A stretch of 64,000 bases of DNA from Gavia stellata (lineage: Eukaryota > Chordata > Aves > Gaviiformes > Gaviidae). The notes below the pieces were generated by a model, which did not search any database, was not told the DNA's origin, and saw nothing but the letters and a program-made list of their open reading frames with translations. Location of the stretch: positions 100,853,334 through 100,917,333 of the forward strand of contig NC_082595.1 in the NCBI RefSeq assembly GCF_030936135.1, in the 5' to 3' direction. This document shows, one piece after another, positions 13,444-50,584 of this stretch. A program made the translations under genes and the position numbers. How positions within the stretch are numbered: the first letter of the stretch is position 1; the number at the start of each line of letters is the position of its first letter.

Positions 13444-13641
13444 CTAAAACCTTCATGCTGACAACAAAGAAGCTATAACAATGGGAGTCACTAATCTGTG
13501 GCAAATCCTTGAGCCTGTGAGACAACCTGTCAACTTGAGCAGTCTCAAAGGAAAAACACTTGCTGTTGATTTAAGTCTGTGGGTTTGTGAAGCACAGACT
13601 GTTAAAAAGATGGTTGGAGTAGTTACCAAGCCACATCTGAG
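13444..13641 (+). CDS. GEN1: GEN1 exon 2, start codon and XPG-N
   Basis: The acceptor TTCACAG ends at 13443; 37 untranslated bases precede ATG at 13481. The exon encodes residues 1-53 plus two bases, including [10 protein letters not shown] and the catalytic D30 in LAVDLSLW. The donor is GAG|GTATGG. A seven-codon upstream frame lies in the leader. Confidence 0.95.
13455..13478 (+). CDS. Upstream micro-ORF in GEN1 leader
   Basis: ATG followed by six codons (MLTTKKL) and TAA lies wholly within exon 2 and ends two bases before the GEN1 start codon. Its start context is weak (T at -3), whereas the main ATG is strong. It may slightly tune GEN1 translation by leaky scanning or reinitiation. No product function is implied. 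Confidence 0.4.
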   Translation: MLTTKKL

Positions 13642-16600
13642 GTATGGTATCCATATAAATTATTGTAGCCAAAAGTCATGGAGCTGTATAATTTAGGTAT
13701 GACACTTACTCCAAATTTAAGACTACCTCTGAAATTCATGTGACTGTGTTTTGATTACGTTATTATCACTTATGCTACCTATGTGACGGGTTTGAAGTGA
13801 AGACTGAATCATACTGGCTGAATTCAACTTAATGCTCGGGTGCAAACAGAAGTTCTTGGGCCTAGCCTACTTTGTCTTGAGGCCTCAAATGGTGATAAGG
13901 ATGAGATGGATGTAAGCAGAATTGTGTTTGTCTTACTGTGATATAGCACTGTGATATACAGGTTATCAAGGAACACAAATCGATGTGCTAATTCCTATAT
14001 ATTTCTGAGGCTGATGGAAGGTAGTATGGCAGTTTCAACTGTTTATCACAGCAGTTTGGATGCTAGTCAATTCAGAGCATACTGAGAGTCCTGTGTGCTT
14101 TAGCCTGATCTGGCTTATAAATTAAAATTCTAGTTAGACCCAGTGTTGAATTAAATATGTTTAAATTGTTCTTCAGGCTTATGAACAACCTTGAAGAAAA
14201 TGTGTATTTTTAATTTAAATGAATCACATTCTTAAGGGATGAGCAAGTATAAGCAGCTGTAATTTCAAAGCACTGTTTTCTGCAAATGATGCTGACAAAA
14301 ATGAAAATATATACAAATTTTCATAAATGACATTGAATCACAGAATCACTATGGTTGGAAAAGACCTATAACATTATCAAGTCCAACCATTAACCCAACA
14401 CCGCCATGCCCACTAAACCATGTCCCGAAGTGCTACGTCTACATGTTTTTTTGAACACCTCCAGTGATGGTGACCCTACCGCCTCCCTGGGCAGCCTGTT
14501 CCAATGCTTCACCACTCTCTCAGTAAAGAAATTTTTCCTAATGTCCAATCCAAACCTCCCCTGGCACAACTTGAAGCCATTTCCTCCTGTCCTATCAGTT
14601 GTCACTTGGGAGAAGACACCAACACCCACCTCTCTGCAACCCCCTTTCAGGTTGTAGAGAGCAGTAAGGTCTCCCCTCAGCTTCCTCTTCTGCAGACTGA
14701 ACAACCCCAGTTCCCTCAGCCGCTCCTCATCAGACTTGTGCTCCAGACCCCTCACCAGCTTCGTCGCCCTTCTCTGGACACGCTCCAGCACCTCAATGTC
14801 CTTCTTGGAGTGAGGGGCCCAAAACTGAACACAGCATTCGAGGTGCGGCCTCACCAGGGCCGAGTACAGGGGCACAATCACCTCCCTATTCCTGCTGGCC
14901 ACGCTTTCTGATACAGGATACGTGTTATGGGTTAGCTCAAGAATACTGAATTACTAGCTGCTGTTAGATGTTCCTATGGCTTCTGTTGAATTCAGCTGAT
15001 ATGAAATACCAGCATCTTCTGAGAATAATTTCTTAAAATGTTGGGCTTATGACCCCGAATTATTAACTTTAACTTAAAGCATGACCAAAATCATTACTTC
15101 CCTCTGATAGGATGTCCTGTGTGCAGTGCAATGGAAGCATCAGTCCAGACCTCTTATGCAGTCTTTCCAAAGCAAGACAAAGGGATGAACAGATTTCTAC
15201 CAAAAAAAGAAATTAAATTGTTTTGCTATGTGTTTTAGAGAAACATAGTGCAAGCAATTGATTTTTATATCGTTTGTGAAACTAGAACTAGCCTCAAAAC
15301 ATCAGCTTATCGTTTTTTACCAACAGCAAATGTACAAAATTGAATCTAGAGTGATGGTCTTTCCATGTCAGTTGAAGAGATATAAATGTTTGGTCTAATC
15401 TTTTTGAAAGATTCATCCTGGAATTACTGGGAAAAGCATATGCTGTCTGATACTACTGCTCTCAATTTTATTGTTATAGACCAAATAGTTATTATTGCTC
15501 GCTTTGAAAATTCCACCCATCAGTGCTGTTGGTTTGCATATAAAATAAATTGACGTGGTAATGGTATCTATGAGTCTGTCTAATACCACAGCATTCAGTC
15601 ACTTCAGAATCTGATGTACTTGTATTGATAGATTAGGGATTAAAATTTGATATACAAGAATCAATGTGGATATGTGTTTGGAAGCAGACTTTGGATATTG
15701 AATGTTTTTTATTAAGAAATTTGCTTATGTCTTTACACCCAAAAAAGATCTTTCTTGTCCTTATGTGGTATTTTCTTGGGAATTTTGTAAAGCTGTTACA
15801 AGTTCATAGTAAAGCAACTTCAACCAAAGACAGTGATATAGATAAAAGGTTTGTTAGCATGGGGGTGAGGGAATCATAAAAGGTGGAGAGGAAGCTAAGA
15901 TTGTTCCTGAGGTAGGCTGAGGGATATAAGGAAAACATCTGAAGAAATCAGGCTTCACTAATTTTGCAGCTTATGGAAAACCTTGCTTTATTGCAGAAAC
16001 CTATTTTTCCGATTCTCTTTCTTAACATCAATGGGAATTAACCTAGTGTTTGTCATGGAAGGAGAAGCCCCCAAGTTGAAAGCAGATACCATGAGTAAGA
16101 GGAACGAGATGCGCTATGGACCTTCGAAGAAAGTTGGAGCTACAAGAACAGGGAGATCTTTATTTAAAGCCATTTTAAAAGAGGTGGGTAATTGAGGGCT
16201 GTGTTTTGGTATTTTTAATGTGATAGGAAGAAATCTTAACCAAATTAAATACAAGTACTTGAAAGAATTAATAGTTTTCTACACAACAAATTTCAACAGT
16301 ATTTTGAGTTTTGAGGGAACACATGCCTTTGAAATTGGGCCTTACAGCATCTCTTAACTGTTGTTGTAGAAGAGGGACAATGTCAGTTAGAATAAGTTAG
16401 AATAATTTTCTTGCTTGATATGTTCCTGTGCATGTTATGCTGTAGTGAGCCACAGCGATAATTGAGTGTTTATTACAGAAATTGAACTTTCTTGTTCTTT
16501 AATAGTGTTAGTATTGACGCTTTTTTTTTTCCCCCCCTAGATTGGGGTATACATGAAAACAGGAATGTGTTGTGTGTCTATGTAAACTAAGCTACGCTAC

Positions 16601-19600
16601 TGTGTTTTTTGAAGAGGTACACAAACTGTTTTGTAACCTAGATCTATGATTTGGTAAACTAGCTGAGTATCTAAGAGGATACACTTGTTGGAAACCCACT
16701 GGATTAGGATAAAAGGAAGATTGTATAGTCGTCTTGGTATAGGTGGTTGAGACCACTCTGGTTGCAAAGACCTTTTGTTCAGTGATTTTCTTCTTCATTG
16801 ATTGTTGCAGATATTTAACCATTTTTGTCTATTCAGAATTTTATGAAATAGAATTTATAGATGCTCGTGGCCTCAGTAGATTGAAAGTATCAATTCATGT
16901 TTTATTCTTACATTTTCTATTCTGAAACTTGTAAGTGGTATATATGAGTATATCAGTATGTCTTATACTGTGGTCCAGTCATACTAGGCCAACAGTACTG
17001 TACTTTCATGCTTGATAGCGTCAGGGAGTTTGGCCTGTGCTAGCCCAGTATTACTGCTTGACCTAACAGTATTGCTTTACAAAGATAAATATTTCTTTGT
17101 TACTCTTCTTTTGAAAACATCCTGAATGTCTATTTAAAGTGTAAAGATTTCTGTGAAGGGGTAACCATTAATCATGCTGTGTTCAAGTCCTGTAACTAAT
17201 ACTTTGCTCTTAGTTGGATATTTCTTTTGACTGTTACAGTAAAATGTATTTCTCCTAAAGTAGAACACTACATCAATACAAGCACTATGGGCAGTACAAC
17301 AGTAGCAGGTTTTGTATACACTTGAGTCTGAGAAACACATGCTAATAAGTGTATCTAATTCAGCATTCAATCTCTCTTTCCTTTTGGATTTCTTCTTTTA
17401 GTGTCTCCAGCTGCTGGAGTGTTTAGGTGTCCCTTGGGTTCAAGCAGCTGGGGAAGCAGAGGCAATGTGTGCCTACCTAAATGAAAAAGGACATGTTGAT
17501 GGGTGCATTACCAATGATGGAGATGTCTTCTTATATGGAGCTCAAACAGTTTATAGGAACTTTGCCGTGAATGCTAAGGTAATGTACCCCATCCATTCTC
17601 ACCCTTTCTTTAGACTTTTCCCAAAAATGTAAACAGAAAGAAGGGGCTTGAAGCAGTTACTTAAGTATTATCGCACTTACCCTCTAGTACTTGGGTTTGT
17701 TTAAAATAGTACGTTTAAGACAGGAATGTTTTGTTTGATTCACTGGCAATCCACGCATTTGATGTGAGAACAAAACTACTGAATTGAAGAACAGTTATGG
17801 TATTATTGAGTGTGATTGTAGTATCCTGTGATGTTGTGTAATATAAAGCTAGGTAGCAAACTCCCCCCCCCCCCCCCCCCCCCCCCTTTCTCCTCTACAG
17901 TGGAGAATTTGAGTGAAGTAATTGCTTCCTATAAATTTACCATTAGGGTATATGGGAGTGGTCAGCCTCCTGGCTCTAATAACAGTGTTCACACACTTGC
18001 ATCTTACAGGTTTGTTTTATTATGAATATACTTACAATTAATACTATTAGTCTCCAATTTAACATGAATAGGGTAGGGATTTTAAGTCTGTATCATAATC
18101 AATTGTTGCAATCATTCAAAAAACCAAATCAATTTATGACCTTGAGCTGAAGTGTTCACTTTTTAGGAATGCAATTTTTCAGAACTGGTGAAAGGCAACC
18201 CCAAATTTCCATAATTTATACTTTCTCTATAAATCAGAGAAAGAAATGCATGTGTTCTGTCTGGTGAATCTAACAGGAAAGTGGAGGAAAAATTATATTG
18301 GGGTTGGAATTTTAATAAAAATTCATCTGAAAGACTTGTTGAGAAAATAGTTCAGTAGTAGGAGAAAATCAATAGAACAGAAAAACAGCACTATGAACAA
18401 TTAGCATTTAAAAATATAATAATTAAAGTTGATGGAAGACAATTTGCTTTGATGGCACCATGTTTGGGTTCTGTGTTGACCTGGTTCTTTTCTTTCATAC
18501 AACTTCCTTGTCCTTTATCACCAAAAAGGAAGGTGGCTTCAGTCTTTCAGGTGTACTTTGTTACATATCTAAGTCAGCATAAAAAAAAAAATTCTGTGAG
18601 TGTGGGTCTGTCAGGGGTATCTGTTCCAGAAAACCGGATTATTTTGGGTTGTTGGCTTGTGTGGGGTTTTGTGGTGGGGTTTTGGGGGGTTTTTTGGGTT
18701 GTTTTTGTCTTGGGAGGTGGGGGGCAGTGTTCTATGTTTTGATTCATGTTACTCTTGATTTCATGTTGTGTTTGAGTCCCTCTACCCTTCAAAGCTTCAG
18801 GTGTTCCTTTAGCTCATGTCTAATATGCTAGGTAACATTTTAATTATTTTTTCTTCAAGTAACACATTAAAATGTTTACGTGGATTTTAAAAAGTGCAGT
18901 TCCTGAGATGATTTATGCAGCCACTAGTGCTGGATAGCTTTAGTTCTTCCACTTTTGCTACAGGTAGTGAAAAACCACCCCTTGGGTTATTTTAGTTTCT
19001 TTCAAAAGTTGATGCCCATACTTGAAATTCCAGAACTGTAGTTATTTGTGTGGCATCCATACATTACAATATAAATCTTAGTTGCTGCTTATTTTTTTTT
19101 GCTATCAGACCCCTCTTATGGGATAGACCCATTTCCTGCAGATGTGGGTGAATAGGGATGGGTAAGCAATCACAGCTGAATGTGACTCAGGGCAGTTCCT
19201 TCCCTGATGTTACAGAAATAACATGTGCAATAAATTTCTCTTGCAGGATCCGCACCTTGACTGTTACACAATGTCTTCTGTTAAGGAGAAGCTTGGTTGT
19301 GACAGAGAATCTTTGATAGGGCTAGCTGTTCTTCTGGGTTGTGATTATCTTCCAAAGGTAAGCAAAATAATTATTTTTTTATTAGGTACTTACACTGTCT
19401 TGAAAAACAAACTATATCAAGGGAGACATGTGCGTGCTGACAAAACTGTGTGCAATGCATGATTAGAGATCTGGTTGAAGATGCTTATAAGTCGCTGTAA
19501 ATTTTATTTGTGAAGGCTTGAAGATGATGAAAATGGTTCATGAACATTAATCTTTCTAATTATTCCAGACTTTTTCTATAATGAAGGTGAAGACAAAAAT

Positions 19601-22600
19601 TTAGGTGTCAATGACATTGAGCAAAGGTGTGAGAAGTCAGTTGTTTGTGAGGAATCTTTGTAACCATTCACATATAAGTACATCCTTGGCAGAGTAGCTG
19701 TGGAAATGAGAAAAACAGCTTTGTCTATACTATTTGGAGGACTTAGTAGTGATGGTTTTGAACTGTAGTTATTAGCAATTCTAGTTCTAATGCAGTTTGG
19801 ATGTATCCCCTTTTAGATCTATCGTTTGTAAATATATGATTTATGAAGAAGTCACCTATTTGAAAGTTTGCCTAATGAATGAAGTGAGAGGGATTTCACT
19901 CATTACTACTTCACTTTTTTCTTTGGGCTTTTTTTTTTCTGTAAGCTCTTGAATTTTTTTTGAGACTTTGAAAAGAAGCTGTGTAATGGCTATCTGAAAT
20001 GGAAAGGAAGTGGGGTAAAACTTGATATCCGTACAATTCATGATACAGTGACTTCAGGCAACGGTTGCTCCCATTCAGGCTTACAGTGGATATCTAGTTA
20101 TTCTTAAATCATTGTGTTCCAATTTGATAAAACTGTCCTTTTAAACAACTGATACTGCTGAAAGCAAATCACTTTAATTATTTTTTTCTGAAAGGCTTGC
20201 TTCTGTTATAGGAATCTTTAAATAGTTGTTTAATACTGATATTATTATTATTACAAAATAAATGTATAAAGAGAGAGGGAGTAAAAAAAAAAAATAGTGG
20301 CTAATCAGTGGTTATTGTAATGGAACTAGCAGCTCCTGGAATGCCATGTTCTTGCATAGTCCTAAAGTGACATGATTATGTAATGTCAGCAAGGTCTTTT
20401 GAGTTATTGCAGCCAGCAAAGTGGATAAAGATTGAAACTTCTAAGGAAAGCTGAATTACAGGAATGCATTGGGAATGGGGATTGGCAGAACAGATTAATG
20501 AGAATACCACTCTATAACTGCACTTACTTTGAATATGTATCAAAACAATGTCTTCCTTGCAGAAGCTGAATATCTGACTCTCTACCTGAGTGTCTGGCTG
20601 CAGTCCAATGAGAACTTCTAATTGGTTTTGAATGTACATGTATTTCATATGGTTGCATATATTCAGTTCAGCCATTGCAGCTGAATAAAAATAAGCTATA
20701 GATTTATTTGTAATAATGCTATAGAAAGCACACTCAATGCAATCTTTACATTAAACTGTACTGATTCTTGGCAAAATAGGGTAAGGTTTGAAAGAGAGAC
20801 TGGAAAAGCAATATGTGCATTTTAAATCATAGAATAGTTTGGGTTGGAAGGGACCTTCAAAAGGTCATCTAGTCCAACCCCCCTGCAATGAGCAGGGACA
20901 TCTTCAACTTGATCAGGTTGCTCAGAGGCCTGTCCAACCTGGCCTTGAATGTTTCCAGGGATGGGGCCATCTATCACCTCTCTGGGCAACCTGTTCCAGT
21001 GTTTCACCACCCTCATTGTAAAAAAAACAACTTCCTTATATCTAGTCTAAATCTACCCTCTTTTGGTTTAAAACAACTACCCCTTGTCCTGTTGCAACAG
21101 GCCCTGCTAAAAAGTTTGGGACAATCTTTCCTTTAAGCCCTCTTCAGGTACTGGAAGGCTGCAATAAGGTCTCCCTGGAGCCTTCTCTTTTTCAGGCTGA
21201 ACAACCCCAGTTCTCTCAGCCTTTCTTCATAGGAGAGGTGTTCCATCCCTCTGATCATTTTTGTGGCCCTCCTCTGGTTGTTTTGAATCAACTGACTTTC
21301 AGTCTTCAGCATGTCTAGGGGTTACTACAAAGTTCTGGATTTCATTTCCATGAGCTAGGTTCCAGAAAAGGAACTTCCAAGGTCAGGTTGAACAGAGCTC
21401 TAAGCAACCTGATCTACTTGAAGATGTCCCTGCTCATTGCGGGGGAGGTAGACTATAGATGATATTTAAAGGTCCTTTCCAACCCAAACCATTCTATGAT
21501 TCTATGAAAATACTTACTGTTCCTATCTATTATCCATAGTGGTAGTCCCTTTTCCTATAAAGGATGTGCATATTGCAGATGTAATAATGGAGTAAATATC
21601 AAAGTCAAGCAAGCAATTATTGAACGGGAGGGGAGGAATTCTTTGGGTTTGTGGTTTTACTGGGTTTTTAAATTATTTTTCAGAAAATGCTCTTGCACTT
21701 TTCTTTGTCACCTCTCAGAATTGATTTTGCATAAGTGCTTGAGGTCTTCAAATATTAAAAGTTGTCTGTGTTGCCATAAAGCATCTCTTTCCTGTGAGTA
21801 AAAGCTTTTTGCTGGATTTCTTCTATCTTTTAAGTTCCAGCCTTTTGACTCTAAAATCTAAAAGATCTGTGTTCGTCTTGTCTTTCCAAGACAATTCTGA
21901 ATTCAAAGTTTCAGCTCTCTGGCAGTTAGCTGGCAAGTTGTCCTGTTGCAGATAGCAAGAAAGAAAACAAAACAAACAAAACCTCTTTTCCTATTGTTTT
22001 CTACTACCTTCTTTCTCTACCTTGTTTTATCTGAGCCGCTATTGAGCGTAAGAACACTTTATGCAGCTTGTGTGTTGCACTGGTAGTACAGCTGTAATCT
22101 GTCACTTTCTCTGACTTTAGAACTTGGTCAAAAATTATTTTTCTCAATTTATTCTCAACATGTGGGATCATTTTTGTCATTTCTCTACATAACATTGTGA
22201 AGGCAGTTTTTATGAAAATCTGAATGCTTTCTGTTTGTCATTAAATAATGTTTCGTATTTCTGTCTCTATAGGGTGTTCCAGGAGTTGGGAAGGAACAAG
22301 CTTTAAAGTTAATTGAGACTTTGCGAGGTCAAAACTTATTGCAAAGGTAAGATGAAAATTTATGTTGTATGCTGAAGTATTTTGATTTTATTCAGAGACT
22401 TGCTAGTATGTACTTCAGATCCAAGACAATGTTTGTAATACTTTTAATTTGGAGGTGGGGGGGAGATTACCACATTCCTTACTTCATGTTTGGTAAATGA
22501 AGTAAGTGTTTTGCTAGGCAAGCTTCTTAATTGTTTTAAACATTAGCTGGCTCCTAGCTCTTGAGCTAGGAGATGTACGTTGATATATTGGAAAGAAAGT

Positions 22601-25600
22601 CATAGGGGCTGATGAGAGAGTTTTGCTGATTTTTTTTTTTTTTTTTTAATTGGGTTGTGGATCAAGACATGAGATACCATACGCTTTCTATGTTTGTTAT
22701 CATAATGTGTGTGTCAGTACTAGAAATCCAACAATCATAATGTACTGTAAAAAAATCTATTTCTTAAATTGGAAAACTTTTTCAGGTAGATGCCTGAGAA
22801 GTATAAAGGGGGTATTTTTCAGTGTTTTATTTTAAGTATGAAAGTTAATAATATTTTTTAATCCTTTTAATATCATCCTTTTAGGTTTGAGCAATGGAAA
22901 GAACAATTTCAGTATGATAATAATCCACCTTTGGTTGTTAAAAGGGTAATTCACTGTTCTGAGTGCCATCATCCAGGTCAGTGTGAAAAGCGTTGAATTT
23001 TATTTCTAGCTTAATTGTTTACTTTTTGTTCTGGGTGTGTGGGGTGGTGGGTTTTTTTGTTTCGTTGGGTTTTGGGGTGTTTTATGACTGGCGTTTAAAA
23101 ACTGCTTTTCTTGTCGTTCAGCTTCTGGGCTATCTTCACATTTTCAATATTGTTTATATCTGTATCTTTATATAAATATTTTTGAGGCTGGGGACTACCT
23201 TTCTTCAAATGTGAAACTAGTTCATAGCAGATGGAATGTTATCACAACGCTGTTGTGTGATCCCAGATATTTGCCTTTTCAACACTATCAGTAAAGAAAG
23301 GATGCTATACTAACAAGCAACTATTTCTTTAGTTGACTGAATGTGTCTTGCATCGAGAGGACTGAATCCATTAGCATTGCTGGGTTTTGCCGCAGTGTTT
23401 TCTTAAAAAGAAATTATTCTTAAGGAACCTCATTTTGGTAGCATCTTTGATCAGTGAACTCATTCAAACCCATCACCTGGAGAAGGAAAAGCTTGTTTCA
23501 AGTATGTTACTAATATACATTTGTCAGGATGTCATGGACTACTTATGTAGTTTTTAGGTAATAAAGTTTTCAGCGTAAGGTCTGAAACTATTGGGGGAAA
23601 AGTCTTCAAAATAAAAAAAAAAGAAAGCTTGCTTCTATTTGTCAGTTTTCACTGTAGCTATATAAATACAGCTAATGCACTCAGATCTGCTTATGGCTAC
23701 TATTCTTGTCAGATTCATATGTGTTCTGAGTTTTGTATTTGTACTGTTAGCTTTGTATATTTGGAGATTTTGGAGACCTCTTTTCTCCTCCTGCTTTGTG
23801 CATCTGCTTCTATAGGATCTTACAAGGAACATGAGCACAGTGGATGTAAACTCTGTGAAAGCACTAGATACTGCAAACCCAATGACTCCAAATACTGCTG
23901 CCCTTGTGAATGGCATCGGTTAGAGCGAGCGAAACAAGCAAGTGCAGTGGAGGACAACATCAGAAAGTAGGAATGTCTTGAAAATTAAACCGCTTTTCCC
24001 TGTGTTCATGTGCAGAGTGAACGTTTAAATTCTGCATTTTTCCATTTGTATTCAGTTCCTAACACATCTGTTTTACCTGCAGAAAAGCTAACAGTTGTGT
24101 GGGCTTTCCGTTCTCTGAGGTAACAAACAAGCATATTTAGAGATTAATTTTTTTTAATCAATTAATTGACATTTCAGTTTTCTGCCCTCTCTTAAACTCT
24201 TTTTTGTTTTATCTCAAGGTTATCCAAGAATTTCTTGTAAACAAGAATAAATTGATCAAGATAAAGGAATGCCAAAGGCCAAATTTATTGTCCTTTCAGG
24301 TATATAAGAAAATACTGGTTTTTCAGCTCTAGTGTTCTGTTTATTAGTAAGGAAGGCATCTGTGATTATTTTGATCTGTGTTGGTAATTTTACTGGAAAT
24401 AAGAATTAAAGAATCTTGCTGCAACTTCTTAATATACTTCATTTTTTGAAAGTCTAAAATTGAAGACTTTGAAGAAAATCAGTTGATGTAAATACATATG
24501 TAAAAAAGTGGAAGAAAGAGAACTCAGAAAAAAGGTCACCTGCCATTGTTTTGTTTTTCACTGTCCCATATGACTAGATTGGGTTGCTGAATGCTACATT
24601 ATTTATATAATATATAAAGTACTATATGGTTATATCATGGAATACATACTTCAGGGATGTTATCTTTTTGTTTTCATCCACCTTTCATAAAGGTATTCAC
24701 AAATACAACTCTTGTTTTTACTCGTACTTGTTTCATTATCATACTGACACAGTGCATATATGGTAACTTTGGGTATTATAGCAAGTTATGGTTGTGGACT
24801 TTTTTTTAACGTTAAACTTTTTTTTCAATATTTTTTCGGTATCATCGAGATCACCAGCTTCTGTATATAACAAGCAGAAGCAGCTTTTATTCTGAATGTT
24901 GCCTGTTTTCCCAAAAACAGGTAGCAGGCTTGTATTTAGCATAATACTACCAGCTTTCAAGTTCAGAGGCCGTTTCATTCAAAGTGCACAAAGCTCAAAA
25001 GTGGTCTCGCTTATTCCTCTGTCCATAGAAGGAAGGATAAATATCCTGTGAGGCTTCTTTTTTTTTTTTTTTTGGGGGGGGGGGGGCATGTGGGGTGTTA
25101 ATATATGCATGTGTGCTGGTTTTGGCTGGGATGGGGTTAACTTTCTTCATAGCAGCTAGTATGGGGCTGTGTTTTGGATTGTATGGGGCTGTGTTTTGGA
25201 TTTGGGCTGGAAACAATGTTGATAGCACAGGGATGTTTTAGTTACTGCTGAGCAGGGCTCACACAGCACCAAGGCCTTTTCTGCTCCTCACCCCACCCCA
25301 CCAGCGAGTGGGCTGGGGGTGCACGGGAAGTTGGGAGGGGACACAGCCGGGACAGCTGACCCCAACTGACCAAAGGGATATTCCATACCATATGACATCA
25401 TGCTCAGTATATAAAGCCGGGGGAGGAAGAAGGAAGGTGGGGACATTCGGAGTAATGGCGTTTGTCTTCCCGAGCAACCGCTACGTGTGATAGAGCCCTG
25501 CTTCCCTGCAGATAGCTGAACACCTGCCTGCCGACGGGAAGTGGTGAATGAATTCCTTCTTTCGCTTTGCTTCTCCGCGCGGTGTTCTTTGCTCTACCTA

Positions 25601-28600
25601 TTAAACTGTTTTTATCTCAGCCCACGAGTTTTCTCACTTTTACTCTTCTGGTTCTCTCCCCCACCCCACCTGGGGGGAGTGAGTGAGTGGCTGTGTGGTG
25701 ATTAGTTGCCAGCTGGGCTTAAACCACGACAGTCCTTTGTGGCGCCCAACGTGGGGCTCGAACCCACGACCCTGGGATTAAGAGTCCCATGCTCTACTGA
25801 CTGAGGGTAGGGTCCAGGGTTCAAGCCCCTGTTCAAGAGCCACAAAGGACTGTCGTGGTTTAAGCCCAGCTGGCAACTAAGCACCACACAGCCGCTCACT
25901 CACTCCCCCCAGGTGGGGTGGGGGAGAGAACCAGAAGAGTAAAGGTGAGAAAACTCGTGGGCTGAGATAAAAACAGTTTAATAGGTAGAGCAAAGAACAC
26001 CGCGCGGAGAAGCAAAGCGAAAGAAGGAATTCATTCACCACTTCCCGTCGGCAGGCAGGTGTTCAGCTATCTGCAGGGAAGCAGGGCTCTATCACGCGTA
26101 GCGGTTGCTCGGGAAGACAAACGCCATTACTCCGAATGTCCCCACCTTCCTTCTTCCTCCCCCGGCTTTATATACTGAGCATGATGTCATATGGTATGGA
26201 ATATCCCTTTGGTCAGTTGGGGTCAGCTGTCCCGGCTGTGTCCCCTCCCAACTTCCCGTGCACCCCCAGCCCACTCGCTGGTGGGGTGGGGTGAGGAGCA
26301 GAAAAGGCCTTGGTGCTGTGTGAGCCCTGCTCAGCAGTAACTAAAACATCCCTGTGCTATCAACATTGTTTCCAGCCCAAATCCAAAACACAGCCCCATA
26401 CAATCCAAAACACAGCCCCATACTAGCTGCTATGAAGAAAGTTAACCCCATCCCAGCCAAAACCAGCACAGCATGTTAGCATTGTTTTCTAAGAATGATT
26501 TTTATTTGCTTTTTATTGGTGAAAGCGGATCTTTTTACAATGTTTCCTTTTCAAGGATTGATGACAGTGTGAGAATTATGTATAGCATAATAGACCGCTG
26601 TTGAGCAATGTAGTTTTAATGAAAATCTGCATTCATGCTTCTCTCACGTGTAAAATCCGTAATTTTCACAGCTCCTTGCATAGCTGGTCTGAATCTGATA
26701 GTGTTTAGCAGCTCTCTTATCCCTGCTGCTGCCGGTACACAACTGTTGCCTTGTCTTGTTATTGACAGCTGATGAAACTGCCCTGTTGCGGATGGCTGTT
26801 CCCTCCCTTGGCAGTGAGATACCGTTACGCATTACACTAATGTATAAAAGCATTCTAGATATTTTAAGTATTTAGTCCTGTGACCCTACTACATAGCTGT
26901 CTAAGCATGGTATCTAACAGAATAAGAAAGTTTTAAAGTTTGGTTTGGTTTTTTTTATACTAACAGATATTTGCTTCTGAGAAGATGGAATGGACCAAAC
27001 ATTACGCTTGTAAGAAACTGTTAGCACTATTGACACATTATGATATGATCCAGAGAAAATCTGGATACATTGATTCAAAACAACTGCAGGCAATACGGTA
27101 ATGTAGCTTGATTTCTTGAACTTAATAAGTGTACTTCTGCTGCTGGAGGAAAATCACATGTTTTTTTCCTTTTTTTATGAAAGTATAATGGTTTTCTTGC
27201 ATCTCTCTTTCAAGCCTTGTGCTCATTTTGAATACAGGTAAAAAATTACATCAGTACACCAATTCTTATTCTACTACTGCACAAAGTAATACATATAGCA
27301 GTTCCCTTTCATTCTACCTGACAATGCCTGCTTTTTCCTATGCTTACTTTCTATTCTGTTTCCTTGGATCTGCGCATGAGATATAGCATTACAGGTTTGA
27401 TCCTCTGCTCAGGTTCTTAGCAGAAGTTTAATTGACTTCTGTGATTCAAAATATGAGCCTAGAGTTAGAAATAAGTTATCTTCAGATTCAGTCATGGTCT
27501 CTGATTTCTTATCAGACCTACTGACTGTCGTCATACTATGTGTCTGATGAAATCCTTGGCTTACGGTTCTATTTTGCTACCCCTTTTTCTCAAAACATTT
27601 TCATTCAGCACTGCTCATTTAGGAATATAAAAATGGCCAAGTATCCTGTTACTAAAATAGGATATGCAGGAAAAAACCCAATATAAGCATGTAAATACTT
27701 CCCACAGAATATTTTCCCACCATCCAGGTTTCTGTTACTCAGGGGTTTTCTGAGCCAGAAGTAGTACCTTCTTATTCTGTCAGCCCTCAATGTATTTTTT
27801 GTTGTTTTTTAAATGATCTATTGTTTTCTTAAACGTACGTAAAATTCTATAATCTATGGTGTCTGTTGCCAAGTCTGAACTTAACTTCACTGTGTGAAGG
27901 AAATTGTTACTTTAGTATCTGATGGTTTCATTTCCCAAATGAAACCCAAATCCCACCCTCCTCCCCCCAAATTCTTGTACTGCAAGAAGGTTACTAGTTT
28001 TTCCATGTTCCTTGATGCTGTTCAAAATTTTATAGACCTTCATTTTAGGGAACAGAAGAACAGTCAGTAGCAATGTGATAGTATTTCTTCTGGGTTCATG
28101 TGTCATAGTCTGTTAAATTATTACATGCAGGGAAGCTGTTCTATTCAGTGTTATCTTTCAGAAGAGTAGAGAGACTGGTTGGGGACTGCTTTTTAAACAG
28201 GTTGGTTAGATAAATTACCAGCACTTACCTTGATGAATGAATTAATTGATATCCTCTGTTTATAACACGTTCTAGTGTTTCAAGAGTTTAAAAGACAGAT
28301 CATGTATGCTCTAGAAGATTTCTTTTGTTAATAAGCATTTAAAAATGCCGTAATGATTACGCAGGAGCCTCTTCACGCATAGGAACCTATTAAACTGGAG
28401 TGTAGATAAAGTTTTTAGAAAAATCTCATAAAGACTGACTGTCCCTGCTCAGTTCATGTTTTATCTTTCTTCATGCTCTCATGCAAAAGGTATAAATGAC
28501 CCTGTCTGGTCATTGAGAAAATAACTGTCTATGGCAACAGCCTTCCCTGTGGCATTAGTTGAAGATATCAAACTGATGTTTGTAGGAGTCTGCGTTACGG

Positions 28601-31449
28601 TTGTCTGTTACAGAATAGCTTTTTGATTTTTTTGTTATGCTCCTCTGAGCTGTATCATTAAAAAAAATAAAAATGTTTCAGTACTCAAATCTAGACCCAA
28701 AATTTTACTGTATAACTTATACAGAGAAGTAGTGTGGTTTTTTTAAAGGTGTATTAATTTCACTATTACAAGAATATTTTTTCCTCTGAATCATTACAAA
28801 TTAGAGTATTGAAATATTTTTAGATAATTTAGATTTTTTTTTTTCCTGTTTAAACAAAATCATTTAATGGCCTTCTTTGTTCTTACAGGATAGTCAAGAC
28901 ACGTGTTAAAAACGGAATTCCTTGTTTTGAAATTGAGTGGCAAAAACCAGGTTGGTCTGGTTTCTATGTACATTATGGGACAAAACAGTTCATAGAAAAA
29001 GGGAAAGGTGTGCTTTAAAGAGGAAAAGAGTTTGACAACATTATGAGGCAATGAAATGTGGGTGCGATTGGAAACTGTTCCATGAAAACAATAGAAAATG
29101 TGCATCAAATTTCACATACCCTGAAAGTAACAGCAATGCTTTAAAAAAAAAAAATTACCTAGAAAGCAAGGGACTCGGTCTTCAGGTACTTTTTCTGGTA
29201 CATGTTCATAAGACCTGGACTCTGTATTTCATGTCTCGTTTCACTGTGTACCTGAAGCTGTGACTGTTCACTAGCTAGAAATTTTTCTATGCTGACAGAC
29301 TGCTACCTTTAGTGTGCCTGTTTGTACTAGGAGACTGGCAGAAAGAAAAAGACTTTACTTGTATCTAAATCTCAAACATTGTACTATTGACTTTTTTACA
29401 TACCTTCTTTGTACTCAAATAAATCTTTTGTTCTTTGTTTTTCTTATTCCCTAGTTTGATATGTGTGTATATACATGTCTAATACATTAATTTTTTTAGA
29501 ACATTATGTTGATGCAGAAGATGAGCCTGTGGAGTTGTTTGTAGTCACAGTAGAAGAGGAGTCTTTGTTTCAGGCTGCTTATCCTGATGTTGTTGCTCTT
29601 TATCACGTGGAAAAGTCAGAAGTTTTGAAGAAGAAACAGAAAAGTAAGTCCAAAAGCTTATTTCTTATGAACTTATGGGTCTTGTCAGAATACAAGAAGC
29701 AAAAGCAACAAACATTTCTCCCACTGTTGAGCAGTATCATGTTTTGTGAAGATCAGATCATGATACCTTGCAGGGACTGGAGGTGTTCAAGGAACGTGTG
29801 GACGCGGTTTAATAGGCATGGCGGTGTTAGTTGATGGTTGGACTTGATGATCATACAGGTCTTTTCCAACCTTAGTGATTCTGTGACTGTGCTTTTATTT
29901 TACCATTTTATACTTTAGCAAGAGGAAATCTGAACTGTGGTTAATATGCCATTTTGATATGCCCGTTTTATTTTTTTCAGACAGGAAAGACAGACCAAAA
30001 GGAAAGGAATTATCAAATATTTATGATGAAGTTAGCGACCTTCTGTCTCAAATGAATTTAAAATCTAAATGTGGAATTCTTCCTGTGCCAGACTCCATGT
30101 CAGATATAAAAACTTCCCCAGAAGATCAGATATGCCAGAGGAGTACTGAATCAAAAGATCTGCTGTTAGTTGCAGCTTCCTGCATAACAACTGTTCCAAT
30201 ACCAGCGTCAGCAGCTGCTCTTCCTCTGACTGCATCACCTTACTCGCTCTTAGAGAGCACGTTGGCTGACTCATCTGTATTGCCAGCACAATTTAGTAAA
30301 AATTCAGGGATATCGTCCTCTGTAACAGCTGGTCTTCAACTGAGCAGTATTGATTGCAAAGGAACCTTCTTCAGGGCTTCACCAGCCCATGGGGGTGATA
30401 CCCATGATCCAGCAGCTGACTTAACTATGTACATAAAACACTCACATCAACTAGGTCATGAAACAGTGAGAAATAGCTCAGAATATTCTGATGCTATGCA
30501 GTCTGATCAGCATCATTCTGATAGTGTGGATGATTTGGTTTCAGATGATGCTATAGAACAACTTCAGAACTGGTCTTTAAGTGAGCGAATACTTAAGAAG
30601 ACTTCCATTCCATCAAAGCCTTTGTTGTCTGAAGATGTAAAGCAACTGGAGTCTTTGAAGTGGTTTGAACAAACAAAAGAAACATTGAATCCTGATAAAG
30701 ATTATGTCTCTTCCTCATGTCAGTTAAATAAACTAGTGCAGTTAAATAAACTAGTGCAGAAAAGTAAAAATGTACTATCAGAAAACTATTCAAGGGAATC
30801 CAATGTACATGTTTATCAAGATCAGTACAAAAAAGCTGACAGCCTGGCTGAAATGATGCAAAAAGATCATAATATAAGCTGTTCGGCATCTCTAGCCTAC
30901 GGTGGGCAAACAACGGAGACACTACATCCTGGGTGTGAAATGCTTCCAGCGTCTAAAAAGCCAGCAGATGTTGTAACTGGCTGTCACATTAAAAAAGCTT
31001 GTACTCAAACTACTTGGAAAACTTCTTTTAAAAAGAGTGTGTGTCAGAACAGATGTTCTTCTAGTGAAGACAGTGATGATGGGAACATGAATAAAAATCT
31101 GATTTATGAGCAGCAGAAAAGACAACTGAACGCTGGTCAGTTTAAAAAATCTTTTACAAAGAAAAGGAGTAATGTTATTAGCAAAAGAACAAACAGTGAC
31201 TCAGCCCTTATAATTAAAGGGAAGAAGGAGGCCAGTTTAAAAAAAGCTGGTAATAGCTTCTCATTGCAAGTTTCTCCAAAACCATCCTCTGTAGGGGAAG
31301 TTAATTGTTCCCAAAGCCCAGAGCAACCGTTTGAGAGGTCAGGTTCTGGCCCCATGCAGCAAGCCAGAAGTGCTGTTCTGACTTATGCATGGGCAGACAG
31401 TCCCCTTCCCCTGTCTGAAAGACTAAAAGGAAGAATCAAAATCAATTAG
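13481..31449 (+). CDS. GEN1: GEN1, Holliday junction 5' flap resolvase, complete (13 coding exons)
   Basis: GEN1 is a XPG/FEN1-family nuclease that cuts Holliday junctions symmetrically as a dimer, resolving recombination intermediates late in the cell cycle. The 13 coding exons listed separately join in phase to 958 codons; human GEN1 is 908. Domains in order are XPG-N (about 1-95), XPG-I (about 118-205), helix-hairpin-helix (about 208-235, [10 protein letters not shown]), a cysteine-rich insert (about 256-300), a chromodomain (about 395-465) and a long, poorly conserved Ser/Lys-rich tail. The metal-binding acids fall at the human positions: D30, E75, E134, E136, D155 and D157. The start ATG at 13481 has A at -3 and G at +4. 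The gene appears intact, with no stop or frameshift. The C terminus keeps the human-like [11 protein letters not shown] ending. Intron 9 carries an inverted retroviral LTR pair. Confidence 0.97.
13642..15996 (+). other. GEN1 intron 2
   Basis: Apart from the CR1 copy at 14335-14915, AT-rich unique DNA with no further supported feature. Confidence 0.5.
14335..14915 (-). mobile_element. CR1 LINE, 5'-truncated, with ORF2 C-terminal remnant
   Basis: An open minus-strand frame of 170 codons (14390-14902) encodes the end of the CR1 reverse-transcriptase polyprotein: [46 protein letters not shown] and [18 protein letters not shown]. The 3' UTR follows toward 14335, ending in the usual TTCTGTGATTC-type tail. 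The copy is fairly young, since the frame is still open. It lies in GEN1 intron 2, antisense to the gene. Confidence 0.93.
15997..16183 (+). CDS. GEN1: GEN1 exon 3, end of XPG-N
   Basis: The acceptor is TTATTGCAG and the donor GAG|GTGGGT. The exon encodes [10 protein letters not shown] to KAILKE, residues 55-116, with metal ligand E75 in VFVMEGE. It ends in phase 0. Confidence 0.95.
17402..17578 (+). CDS. GEN1: GEN1 exon 4, XPG-I active site
   Basis: Encodes residues 117-175. It contains [11 protein letters not shown] (E134, E136) and [12 protein letters not shown] (D155, D157), the core of the nuclease active site. 59 codons, with both ends in phase 0. Confidence 0.97.
17579..19246 (+). repeat. 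GEN1 intron 4 with poly(C) run and G/T-rich tract
   Basis: A run of 24 C lies at 17863-17886. At 18645-18725 an irregular tract of GGGG and TTTT blocks could fold as a G-quadruplex on the coding strand. Nothing else stands out. Confidence 0.6.
19247..19357 (+). CDS. GEN1: GEN1 exon 5
   Basis: Encodes [15 protein letters not shown] to LLGCDYLPK, residues 176-212, the end of the XPG-I region leading into the helix-hairpin-helix. The acceptor is CTCTTGCAG and the donor GTAAGC. Confidence 0.96.
20827..21285 (-). mobile_element. CR1 LINE fragment
   Basis: The plus strand shows the complement of a CR1 3' end: tagaatagtttgggttggaa, then ccctgcaatgagcagggaca, gcctgtccaacctggccttg and a gcaggctgaacaaccccag-type block. 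5'-truncated. It lies in GEN1 intron 5, antisense to the gene. Confidence 0.9.
21352..21508 (+). mobile_element. CR1 LINE 3' end, inverted relative to the preceding copy
   Basis: The sense CR1 tail reads ggtcctttccaacccaaacc, followed by attctatgattctatga ending near 21508. About 70 bases of other DNA separate it from the opposite-facing CR1, so the two tails can pair as an inverted repeat in GEN1 intron 5. Confidence 0.88.
22273..22346 (+). CDS. GEN1: GEN1 exon 6, helix-hairpin-helix
   Basis: Encodes [15 protein letters not shown] and nine more residues, the DNA-backbone-binding HhH2 motif. The acceptor is CTCTATAG and the donor AAG|GTAAGA. It ends two bases into an arginine codon. Confidence 0.95.
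22885..22976 (+). CDS. GEN1: GEN1 exon 7
   Basis: Encodes [12 protein letters not shown] to CSECHHP, residues 238-267. The first Cys pair of the cysteine-rich insert is here. The acceptor is CCTTTTAG and the donor G|GTCAGT. Confidence 0.92.
23816..23966 (+). CDS. GEN1: GEN1 exon 8, cysteine-rich insert
   Basis: Encodes [13 protein letters not shown] to AVEDNIRK, with [11 protein letters not shown] and YCCPCEWHR. Together with exon 7 it forms a cluster of about nine cysteines plus histidines that is also present in human GEN1. The donor is AAA|GTAGGA. Confidence 0.94.
24083..24119 (+). CDS. GEN1: GEN1 exon 9, 37-base micro-exon
   Basis: Encodes [12 protein letters not shown]. It is very short, but the acceptor (TTACCTGCAG), the donor (GAG|GTAACA) and the phase all fit. 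Human GEN1 has the matching segment, ending in GFPFHE. Confidence 0.93.
24219..24299 (+). CDS. GEN1: GEN1 exon 10
   Basis: 27 codons, [14 protein letters not shown] to RPNLLSFQ, in phase 0 at both ends. The acceptor is TATCTCAAG and the donor CAG|GTATAT. Confidence 0.95.
25112..25731 (+). mobile_element. Retroviral LTR, left arm of inverted pair
   Basis: A 620-bp LTR running TGTGCTGG to CCACGACA, so with the expected TG...CA ends. It retains a TATA box (TATAAA, 25410-25415) and an ATTAAA poly(A) signal (25600-25605). U3 has a 22-bp tandem duplication at about 25160-25203. The following DNA starts with 8 bases and then the primer-binding site TGGCGCCCAACGTGGGGC, typical of betaretrovirus-like (class II, ERVK) elements primed by tRNA-Lys. 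It resembles an LTR family common in bird genomes; I do not assign a family name. No gag, pol or env sequence is present. Confidence 0.9.
25732..25850. other. Spacer of LTR palindrome: two primer-tRNA copies in opposite orientation
   Basis: In order: eight bases (gtcctttg), then 25740-25805 matching the complement of tRNA-Lys(CUU) including the CCA end, then five bases. Next, 25811-25842 resembles the sense 3' part of tRNA-Lys(UUU) ending in CCA. The mirror image of the eight bases (caaaggac) closes it. There is no viral leader, packaging region or coding sequence. The symmetry continues imperfectly through the primer-binding sites. Confidence 0.85.
25740..25805 (-). pseudogene. tRNA-Lys(CUU)-derived sequence with templated CCA
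   Basis: Read on the minus strand this is 66 bases of tRNA-Lys(CUU) from the D arm to the 3' CCA, with one mismatch to the vertebrate gene as I remember it. The anticodon loop ctcttaa is intact. The first ten or so bases, including the 5' acceptor strand, are missing, so it cannot fold into a functional tRNA. The encoded CCA, which eukaryotic tRNA genes lack, shows it was copied from a mature tRNA. Confidence 0.85.
25851..26470 (-). mobile_element. Retroviral LTR, right arm of inverted pair
   Basis: Also 620 bp, it is the reverse complement of the left arm with four substitutions that I could find and no indels. One of the four (acgcg here, acgtg in the left arm) looks like CpG decay in the left arm. 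The TATA box and poly(A) signal are intact and face left. The two LTR promoters therefore point at each other across the spacer. Confidence 0.9.
26967..27097 (+). CDS. GEN1: GEN1 exon 11
   Basis: Encodes [17 protein letters not shown] to QLQAI, residues 358-400, leading into the chromodomain. The acceptor is ATACTAACAG, just 497 bases after the end of the inverted LTR pair. The donor is CG|GTAATG. Confidence 0.95.
27098..28888 (+). other. GEN1 intron 11
   Basis: 1.8 kb of AT-rich DNA in which I see no repeat family, RNA gene or exon. Confidence 0.45.
28889..28950 (+). CDS. GEN1: GEN1 exon 12, chromodomain
   Basis: Encodes [20 protein letters not shown], the beta-strand core of the GEN1 chromodomain, which assists DNA substrate binding in the human enzyme. 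The donor is G|GTTGGT. Confidence 0.95.
29500..29643 (+). CDS. GEN1: GEN1 exon 13, chromodomain end
   Basis: Encodes [13 protein letters not shown] to SEVLKKKQK, residues 423-469. It closes the chromodomain and starts a basic stretch. The donor is AAA|GTAAGT. Confidence 0.94.
29768..29887 (+). mobile_element. CR1 LINE 3' end, short
   Basis: About 120 bases of CR1 tail (gaggtgttcaaggaacgtg through gtcttttccaaccttagtga to ttctgtgac) in GEN1 intron 13, only about 94 bases before the terminal exon acceptor. Severely 5'-truncated. Confidence 0.88.
29981..31449 (+). CDS. GEN1: GEN1 exon 14, C-terminal tail and stop
   Basis: A single 1469-base terminal coding exon after the acceptor TTTTTTTCAG gives residues 471-958 and a TAG stop. 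It is rich in Ser, Lys and Asn, probably largely disordered, and has basic clusters such as KGKELS and KKSFTKKRS that could act in nuclear import. Positions 30721-30756 hold an exact 18-bp tandem duplication, giving QLNKLV twice. Confidence 0.95.
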
Positions 31450-44689: not shown

Positions 44690-45090
44690 AACTGGCCTAT
44701 TTCAGTCTGGAGAAGAGGAGAAGAGGAGGCTGAGGGGAGACCTTATCGCTCTCTGCCATTACCTGAAAGGGGGTTGCGGAGAGGTGGGTGTTGGTCTCTT
44801 CTCCCAAGTGACTAGCAACAGGATGAGAGGAAATGGCCTCAAGTTGCACCAGGGGAGGTTCAGGCTGGATATTAGGAAAAAGTTCTTTACTGAGAGAGTG
44901 GTGAGACACCGGAATAAGCTGCCCAGGGAGGTGGTGGAGTCACCGTCACTGGAAGTGTTCAAGGAATGTGTGGATGTGGCATTGTGGGACATGGTTTAGT
45001 GGGCATGGTGGTGTTGGGTTGATGGTTGGACTTGATGATCTTACAGGTCTTTTCCAACCTTAGTGATTCTGTGATTCTGTGATTCTATTT
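44690..45090 (+). mobile_element. CR1 LINE 3' end with ORF2 remnant
   Basis: The plus frame reads [58 protein letters not shown] and [11 protein letters not shown] 3' UTR follows, ending in the repeated ttctgtgattctgtgattc near 45090. 5'-truncated. Confidence 0.93.
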
Positions 45091-48000: not shown

Positions 48001-49980
48001 ATAAAATAAGACCAGGGGACATATCAAATGGAAAAGGCACTATAAACACAAATAGGCAGCAGAAAAGACAAAAGGAGTGGGGAAAGATTTTAACTGGGAC
48101 ACGAACAAGCCCCCTATTTACGCTAAATTAAACCTTATGTCTAACTTGTGGCCTTGTGATCATTGTCTTGGTGCTCAATTAAACTCATTCAGTTCACTGA
48201 AGTCACAGAAAATACCTGTCATTCATCTTGTCTTAATTTTAATTTGTAGCAGGCATTTGTGATTCTTAGGACTGTTTCAGCTCATTTTTCTTCAAGAAGG
48301 AGTAAAGCAGAGCTCAGAATACAATCAGGTAACCATAAACCCCAAAGCAATCCTGATTGTGGTGAGCTCTGCCCTGAGTTTCTGCATGGAGTAGATGTCA
48401 TCGTGTCAAACTGTCTCAGCCCGGGCTGAAATGCTAAAATCCTTCTCTTTTTTGTTTTTTCTTATTCATCTCAGCATAAAATCAGGAAGTCTCCCACAAG
48501 CTGCTTCCCAACCTCATAAAAATTCACAAAAGCCTTCCTAATGACTACAACGAGTATTGGATTGGGTTTTTTTCTGAGTGGTTGTAGTGAGGATTTCACA
48601 ACCAAAAAGAAATGGTGTATCCCAGAAAGCCTCAGCTTGCTTCGGCTCTGTGCTGTTCAGAGGCATTCCCCCCTTTTGTCAGAGTGGATTATGGTGCACA
48701 CAGAGATTGTTACAAAGAAGGAATCTCTAAAATAAAACCTACTTTTCTTTTTCCTCCAGGTTGGCAGTCTTTTTCCCCTTCTTTTCATTATATATTCTGT
48801 TTTGCTTCCATTATGTGCTGATACAAAGTCATGGCTGGCAGCTGAGCTGCTCAGTAGAGCTGCAGAGCTCAGTAGTTTTGGACAGTTTTCCTGGCTCTCC
48901 TAATGATTTGCTGTGTGATTTTGGGCAAGTTACTCCTTGCCTCTGCTTATCCATTTCCCCAGAGTAATAGAGATCATTGATCATCACTATAAGCTGTTCT
49001 GAAGCCTAGAGATGAAAAGTGCTCATTATTAATGCTATTAATTTATAGGATATACATTTTCACTTGAACTGCCTAACATATAACTTCACTTTTACATTGA
49101 CTCAGGGCTGGAAAAGAGGGTTTTTTGGTAGAAGAATGGATTCCTAGAGGTAGAAAATCTTACAGAAGTAGCTTCTAGTCTTCTCTTACACACTTCTAAT
49201 CCATATATTACTTTGAATTAAATTTCCATGTAAAACATTTGTTTGGATCCAAAGTTTATACACCCTTTTATCTCTTTTTAAATGACATTTTCCTATTTCT
49301 TTTTTTAAATAGGACTTTGACTGTGTTTACAATTACAGATTTCCTTTTTTTGATTTCCCACTCATGATTTAAAATAGCAAATGAATCTACAGACTGCAGG
49401 GAATGCATTGCTGTTCTTTCCTCTTTTCTCTTGTTGAAAACCAAAGTGATCCAGACAGAAGTTGCATTCGCATGAGAAGAGAGCCATAACACATAGAAAT
49501 CAAAACAAACCATCTTTGACTTTCACAATTAAGATGCAGATAATGAAAGACTACTTCAGCAGCAGTCAGCAGAGATCAAATCATCCCTGCTCTAGTTCCA
49601 TTGTCTTCAAACAGTTACACAGAAATCAAGGTTCGGTGGCTTAAATTCAGGGTTTGTGTTAGCGGTCGTTATCTTTAAATTCTGCGTCTGCAAATTGCTT
49701 TGTAAAATTGTTAATTTTCTTTTTCCTCTCTCACCACTTATCCCCCCAGTGCAACATTACACGTAGATGCACAGCCTTAATTGGTTTAGTTGCAAGAAGA
49801 TAATCTTTTTTTCCTCCTTTCTTGCTGTTGCCTGTTAGCTTAAAGGCTTTTTAGCTGAAGGTTGATAATTATCACCGAGAAGAAACTAGCACATCAGGAG
49901 TTCATTTTCCATCTTAGCACTTGTGGTGCTCCTTTGAACTCCTCTCGCCAAACCCGCGTTCCCACTCTGTCACTTTCCTC
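45091..49980. other. Intergenic, upstream of MSGN1
   Basis: AT/TA-rich simple sequence lies at 47817-47892 and a MIR-type SINE at 48850-48990. No gene is supported. The last kilobase is the likely home of MSGN1 regulatory sites. Confidence 0.45.
48850..48990 (+). mobile_element. MIR-type SINE, old
   Basis: The core MIR string gtgtgattttgggcaagtta is followed by ctgcttatccatttcccc, the expected order in the sense direction. Confidence 0.6.
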
Positions 49981-49984
49981 CCTC

Positions 49985-50068
49985 CATCATAAAAAGGTCT
50001 CCGCAGCCGTCGGCTCCAGCCTTTGCTGGGGGGCAGAGGGCATTGCTTCTCCCGAGCGCTCCTCCAGC
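49985..50068 (+). promoter_or_regulatory. MSGN1: Candidate MSGN1 core promoter
   Basis: CATAAAAAGG at 49988-49997 is a plausible TATA element about 75 bases upstream of the start codon. A LEF/TCF-like CTTTGAA lies at 49932-49938. Msgn1 is a known Wnt/TCF and Tbx6 target in mouse, so the site is of interest, but single short motifs prove little. Confidence 0.35.
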
Positions 50069-50584
50069 ATGGACAAATTGCACGAGACGTTGATAAACAT
50101 GGAAGATGCTTCGGAGCACTCCGTCTGCTTATCGCCCTGGGACTGGAAAAGCGCAGCCGGGTCTTTCGAGCTGCACCCCGTCTCGTCGCCACACAGCTTA
50201 TCCCCGACGCCCTCCTTCGAGTCCTACTCCTCGTCCCCTTGCCCGGTGGTGGCGGAGACCCCCTACGGCAGCGGCGGTGGTGGCGGCAGCCTGGTGGGCT
50301 ACAGCCTGGTGGACTTCCCCCCCGCCTACCTGCCCAGCCCCGGGCAGGCTCGGCTGCCCAAGGGCACCAAGGTGCGGATGTCCGCCCAGCGCAGGAGGAA
50401 GGCCAGCGAGAGGGAGAAGCTGCGGATGAGGACCCTGGCCGACGCGCTCCACACGCTGCGCAACTACCTGCCCCCCATCTACAGCCAGAGGGGACAGCCC
50501 CTCACCAAAATACAAACCCTGAAGTACACCATCAAGTACATCAGCGAACTGACGGAGCTCCTCAACAGCGTCAAGCGGGTGTAG
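50069..50584 (+). CDS. MSGN1: MSGN1, mesogenin 1, presomitic-mesoderm bHLH factor (single exon)
   Basis: MSGN1 drives presomitic mesoderm differentiation and segmentation-clock genes, binding E-boxes as a bHLH dimer. The uninterrupted 171-codon frame begins [13 protein letters not shown], the first ATG in this frame. The N-terminal half has conserved motifs CLSPWDWK and the Ser/Pro-rich [20 protein letters not shown] Gly run sits at about residues 69-73. The bHLH occupies about 105-167: basic region [16 protein letters not shown], helix 1 [13 protein letters not shown], a loop with [10 protein letters not shown], and helix 2 [18 protein letters not shown]. Human MSGN1 is about 193 residues and also single-exon. 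The 3' half is strongly CpG-rich. A longer upstream open frame exists but has no ATG. MESP1/2 are the nearest alternatives and have a different N terminus. Confidence 0.96.

Follow-up and report, generated by a model that had tools for sequence, protein, structure and literature searches.

An inverted pair of retroviral long terminal repeats joined through two lysine tRNA copies in an intron of GEN1 in Gavia stellata

The window analysed here, i.e. a stretch of 64,000 nucleotides from Gavia stellata (assembly GCF_030936135.1, contig NC_082595.1, positions 100,853,334 to 100,917,333 of the forward strand), contains two retroviral long terminal repeats (LTRs) that face each other across a short spacer of mostly tRNA sequence. 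All coordinates given below are those of the window. A motif scan of the window placed exons of the gene GEN1 on the plus strand at 13484 (the N terminus), 17450 (the XPG-I region) and 19337 (the GCDY exon), and the exon at about 29460 matches human GEN1 (5t9j) with an E-value of 4.2e-8. The LTR pair lies in the GEN1 intron between the exons at 19337 and 29460, and the exons on either side of it are found on the same strand and in the correct order.

Mechanical detection of inverted repeats returned two arms, 25112-25773 and 25809-26470, which comprise a left LTR on the plus strand (25112-25731, TGTGCTGG...ACGACA) and an inverted right LTR on the minus strand (25851-26470), both of 620 bp and both with U3 outward. 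The left LTR has the TG...CA termini, the TATA box (TATATAAA at 25408) and the polyadenylation signal (ATTAAA at 25600) by which an LTR is recognized. The two LTRs are identical at 616 of 620 positions (a divergence of 0.65%) and differ at 25486, 25638, 25688 and 25701, where two of the four differences are of the CpG/TpG type. A 22-bp tandem duplication in U3 is present in both (25159-25202 in the left LTR and 26380-26423 in the right one), which implies that both arms go back to one parent or to very closely related ones. An earlier reading made from the letters alone (the sequence-only reading) had described two 620-bp LTRs with four differences that stand U5 to U5 at a distance of 119 bp, and that description is fully borne out. 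With 2e-9 substitutions per site per year the insertion would be young, namely about 1.6 million years old, provided that all four differences postdate it; the figure is a rough guide only.

The pair is bordered by a direct repeat of 5 bp, GCATG, found on the plus strand directly outside the left U3 end (25107-25111) and again directly outside the right U3 end (26471-26475); the probability of a random 5-mer match within the window is 0.0015. The inner flanks of the LTRs are GTCCT and AGGAC. As GCATG is absent from these, 25112-26470 was most likely inserted as a single unit, and the presence of the duplication beyond both outward-facing U3 ends of the inverted LTRs points to an integrase that used the two U3 ends. 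For insertions of avian LTRs, TguLTR5d among them, PMC4540587 gives a target-site duplication of 5 bp. The outer limits proposed earlier (25107 and 26475) hold as well and take in the GCATG repeat, which had not been named at the time. Setting the locus apart from a normal provirus and from a solo LTR was equally justified: the LTRs are inverted rather than direct repeats with viral genes between them, and neither LTR has a duplication of its own, which also leads us to reject two nested solo LTRs. The GCATG duplication argues, moreover, against a later rearrangement.

The 119-bp gap between the LTRs (25732-25850) is made up of an 8-nt stretch at either end, a pair of tRNA copies, and 3 nt where these copies are joined. 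The 8 nt, GTCCTTTG, link the end of the LTR to the tRNA complement and are identical in both arms (25732-25739 on the plus strand, 25843-25850 on the minus strand). They are followed in each arm by TGG, the complement of the CCA end of a tRNA. The left arm continues as a 66-nt complement of tRNA-Lys(CUU) (25740-25805, minus strand), which covers the tRNA from its CCA end as far as nucleotide 11 and is thereby 48 nt longer than the 18 nt after which copying normally stops, whereas the right arm holds 34 nt of sense sequence resembling tRNA-Lys(UUU) and ending in CCA (25809-25842, plus strand). Both copies, compared with human tRNAs (whose sequences may differ from those of the bird itself), exceed the 18-nt primer-binding site (PBS), at 66 and 34 nt respectively. 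The left copy matches two versions of tRNA-Lys(CUU) at 65/66 and 63/66 positions; these versions are set apart by a pair in the anticodon stem, and the copy retains both of its bases. The right copy matches two versions of tRNA-Lys(UUU) at 31/34 and 30/34, and past the 18-nt PBS all 16 positions agree with the former. Elsewhere in the window (i.e. with the spacer excluded) the highest score of any 34-mer is 21/34.

The Rfam tRNA model, whose gathering score is 29, matches the minus strand (25812-25744) with 33.9 bits, in agreement with the left copy. It gives the right part of the spacer no significant match of its own, so that the identity of the right copy comes from the comparison with human tRNA-Lys(UUU). 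At the protein level, a 65-residue frame across the spacer matches 76 database proteins, in 75 of which the string VEHGT, part of the translation of a tRNA-Lys gene, is present. A tRNA gene in the spacer was considered and rejected: ARAGORN reports none, and the 5' acceptor strand is poorly paired in the Rfam match. An autointegration product was likewise rejected, as internal viral sequence is absent and the spacer reads 8 nt, tRNA, tRNA, 8 nt. The fact that the two arms carry different tRNAs indicates that they stem from two primed molecules, and a self-primed hairpin is rejected on that ground.

The junction between the two copies lies at 25801-25813 (plus strand). The left copy terminates after CTGAG (25801-25805), which is complementary to nucleotides 15 to 11 of the tRNA, and this pentamer is common to both tRNA copies, while AGGGT stands twice in tandem (25804-25808 and 25809-25813). 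Across the right part, in that orientation, the tRNA has CTGAGGGT and the window has CTGAGGGTAGGGT, with CTGAG shared and AGGGT doubled. The join therefore bears a microhomology of 5 nt and a tandem duplication of 5 nt, and a pairing of two 3' ends by way of CTGAG:CTCAG, followed by extension with one slip, gives exactly the observed junction. The left copy ends just before nucleotide 10, which in mammalian tRNA-Lys is m2G.

Taken together, we consider it likely (with a probability of roughly 0.7) that the locus is a dead end of retroviral reverse transcription that was nonetheless integrated, namely two DNAs that had read through into their tRNA primers, were joined, and were then inserted by integrase. 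Two copackaged RNAs would have been primed by tRNA-Lys(CUU) and by a tRNA-Lys(UUU)-like tRNA, respectively, and both would have been at the stage of plus-strand strong-stop DNA. According to section 10 of the review PMC13191261, plus-strand strong-stop synthesis normally halts at m1A58, an unmodified tRNA is copied in full, and mutation of the enzyme that methylates position 58 lets synthesis proceed past A58; in tRNA-Lys3, ms2t6A37 acts as a minor stop. The copies in the spacer extend to nucleotide 11 in one arm and to about 40-43 in the other, which suggests that plus-strand synthesis ran beyond position 58 in both molecules; the end of the right copy, as reckoned from the junction, falls 2-5 nt short of the expected A37 stop product. 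Strand transfer is supported solely by products that end at 58, 55 or 54, longer ones being inactive (PMC13191261, section 10). The over-extended strands would as a consequence have been unable to perform the second strand transfer and, once freed from their templates, could have primed on each other. Annealing of their 3' ends through CTGAG:CTCAG and mutual extension with the one 5-nt slip would then have produced a double-stranded LTR-tRNA-tRNA-LTR molecule, the junction being as observed and the order of events as we reconstruct it. Both outer ends of such a molecule would be U3 termini, set by the polypurine-tract primer, and no viral gene would be enclosed. Integrase would finally have joined these two U3 ends to the target in the GEN1 intron, where the 5-bp duplication is seen.

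The same view had in part been put forward in the sequence-only reading, which suggested that an aberrant reverse-transcription product, joined at its primer ends, was integrated. The join inside two different lysine tRNA copies and the 5-bp duplication outside the U3 ends agree with this. That reading left the choice between two strong-stop DNAs and two half-genome DNAs; the former stands if plus-strand strong-stop DNA is meant, and the latter falls, the spacer being made up of 8-nt stretches, tRNA copies and 3 nt.

Several observations weigh against an origin from two read-through DNAs. The three mismatches of the right copy to tRNA-Lys(UUU) all lie within its first 17 nt and exceed the 0.65% divergence of the LTRs, and one of them, C72A, would disrupt an acceptor pair in an ordinary tRNA. 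In both arms the U5 end bears 8 nt (GTCCTTTG) ahead of the PBS, where the usual distance from the CA end of an LTR to the PBS is 2 nt. Furthermore, the tRNA comparison used human sequences instead of tRNAs of the bird, no ordinary proviral copy of the LTR family with an internal region turned up, and the basis is a single locus in assembled sequence.

Among the alternatives, the one that survives best is that the fusion of two LTR ends bearing tRNA overhangs was the work of microhomology-mediated host end joining in the cell, and not of reverse transcriptase, after which integrase inserted the dimer. The 5-nt microhomology and the small tandem duplication at the join are also typical of joining by polymerase theta. 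We nevertheless regard this route as unlikely, since the long minus-strand tails past U3 would have to be trimmed exactly at both ends, whereas mutual extension of plus strands would yield both termini without trimming.

It is less probable still, and we give it little credence, that the tRNA-like sequence belongs to the normal leader of the family (an extended primer over-extension sequence) and that the palindrome consists of two 5' proviral ends, with genuine viral sequence, joined together. Such a leader would accommodate the 3 of 34 positions at which the right arm deviates from the tRNA, it would have a counterpart in the spumaviruses and many strains of HIV, which have tRNA complement directly past the PBS (PMC13191261, section 10), and no ordinary copy of the family with its internal start turned up to contradict it. 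The left arm, however, follows the tRNA at 65 of 66 positions, through the anticodon and D arms, and the two arms carry different tRNAs despite LTRs that are identical at 616 of 620 positions.

The sequence-only reading also raised, should several such loci exist, a palindromic class of insertions or a foldback element. That the locus represents one of many copies, in bird genomes, of a palindromic (foldback) element that is mobilized by viral integrase acting in trans seems to us very improbable. Two U3 ends do constitute an integrase substrate, but a transcript from either LTR would lack a second direct R and could not, in all likelihood, undergo the usual reverse transcription. Among the 76 protein matches of the 65-residue spacer frame, moreover, no second palindrome was found; this is a weak argument, as short frames are seldom predicted as protein. 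An artefact of assembly or of a fold-back read can practically be dismissed, for although inverted duplicates are a familiar type of artefact, the limits of the palindrome coincide exactly with the LTR ends, next to a target-site duplication, its centre is asymmetric with two different tRNAs, its arms differ at 4 sites, and the flanking GEN1 exons keep their strand and order.

With respect to known systems, the parts of the proposed route are familiar: U3-U3 integration (judging by a title), tRNA read-through and template switching are all known. Colicelli and Goff (1988, J Virol 62:633) reportedly described, to go by the title, a Moloney murine leukaemia virus provirus with inverted LTRs that was integrated via two U3 sequences. 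On that same footing the locus in Gavia stellata resembles the Moloney integrant in its inverted LTRs and in the use of two U3 ends, and differs from it in that the latter concerns a mouse virus, whereas here a bird chromosome carries two different tRNA copies at the junction. Mules and others (1998) are said to have found Ty1 replication intermediates with untidy ends; these reportedly share the extra sequence at the ends of retroelement cDNA, but they come from yeast. Over-extended plus-strand strong-stop DNA, as in products P1 and P5 of the Fig. 3 legend in PMC13191261, is likewise an LTR that runs on into copied primer tRNA past position 58; there these are transfer-inactive reaction products, whereas here two of them would have been joined and integrated. 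The likeness to TguLTR5d lies in an avian LTR with a 5-bp target-site duplication, the family being compared by duplication size alone, and a difference is that the passages of PMC4540587 on these insertions mention neither an inverted pair nor tRNA sequence. In the open-licence literature, the titles and abstract openings among the matches listed report no endogenous palindromic LTR joined by tRNA, nor did the combination of germline preservation with two legible primers appear in them.

The LTR family itself has relatives in birds. All 63 database proteins from the LTR search align to the element by translation, and organism names are attached to three of these, all of birds (Grus japonensis twice, Mycteria americana once), as befits a repeat that is dispersed in birds. 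Together with the 3 proteins from a search with two U5-spacer frames, in none of which the PBS of the element is visible, they make up the set of 66 LTR-related proteins, which all (66/66) align to the element. Four proteins (P0006, P0007, P0036 and P0140) read across the U5 end and continue beyond it and, judged by eye, all four diverge from both arms just upstream, like host flanks, which supports the LTR end at 25731; P0141, which starts at the U5 end, and P0142, which is ambiguous, were omitted from this count. The annotated Grus japonensis and Mycteria americana proteins (P0029, P0037 and P0043) include translated antisense LTR of the family, and these stretches are probably transposon sequence annotated as coding.

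Searches for further palindromes and for relatives of the junction yielded little. Words of 5 residues from the right half of the 65-residue spacer frame occur in 0 of the 142 proteins fetched; the alignments of P0064, P0066, P0070 and P0134 enter that half, with gaps. In the IMG/VR and GTDB contigs, three LTR-end patterns hit 9, 2 and 27 loci. When the element was compared with these 38 by BLAST, the 78 alignments obtained were 16-30 nt long, and we take them as chance. A pattern of LTR end plus PBS hit one locus in these contigs (best match to the element 21 nt, E 0.31), extended PBS patterns and the LTR core hit none, and a profile search returned 13 stretches of which none was confirmed.

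As to the surroundings, a T run followed by a G run is found at 25058-25086, about 20 bp left of the insertion. GEN1 (13484-31449), which hosts this near-perfect palindrome of 1.36 kb, encodes a Holliday-junction resolvase. Four-way junctions, of the kind that might be extruded by a palindrome, are among the substrates of this enzyme; the overlap is probably a coincidence. A basic helix-loop-helix (bHLH) gene at 49859-50584, in which the HLH domain was found, looks like MSGN1. Three repeat pieces (14335-14691, 29776-29900 and 44719-45090) are related, with pairwise identities of 84.7%, 79.7% and 86.4%, and their translation resembles the end of open reading frame 2 (ORF2) of the avian long interspersed element CR1; a Pfam scan of two frames of these pieces matched no family.

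If the locus is indeed over-extended strong-stop DNA preserved in a germline, it would provide a fossil readout of both primers of one particle and of the extent to which reverse transcriptase proceeded along each tRNA, and it would show that retroviral integrase naturally accepts two U3 ends. The signature, i.e. an LTR, a tRNA copy of more than 18 nt, an inverted LTR and a duplication, lends itself to searches of any genome; LTR finders that look for direct repeats would presumably miss the pairing of the inverted arms. Strong-stop read-through DNAs might even be a recurrent source of palindromic LTRs in bird germlines, rescued by U3-U3 integration because the U5 end with its 8 nt is a poor substrate for integrase. 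We put this forward as a long shot, but if it is true each such locus would record both primer tRNAs of one ancient particle together with the modification stops on them.

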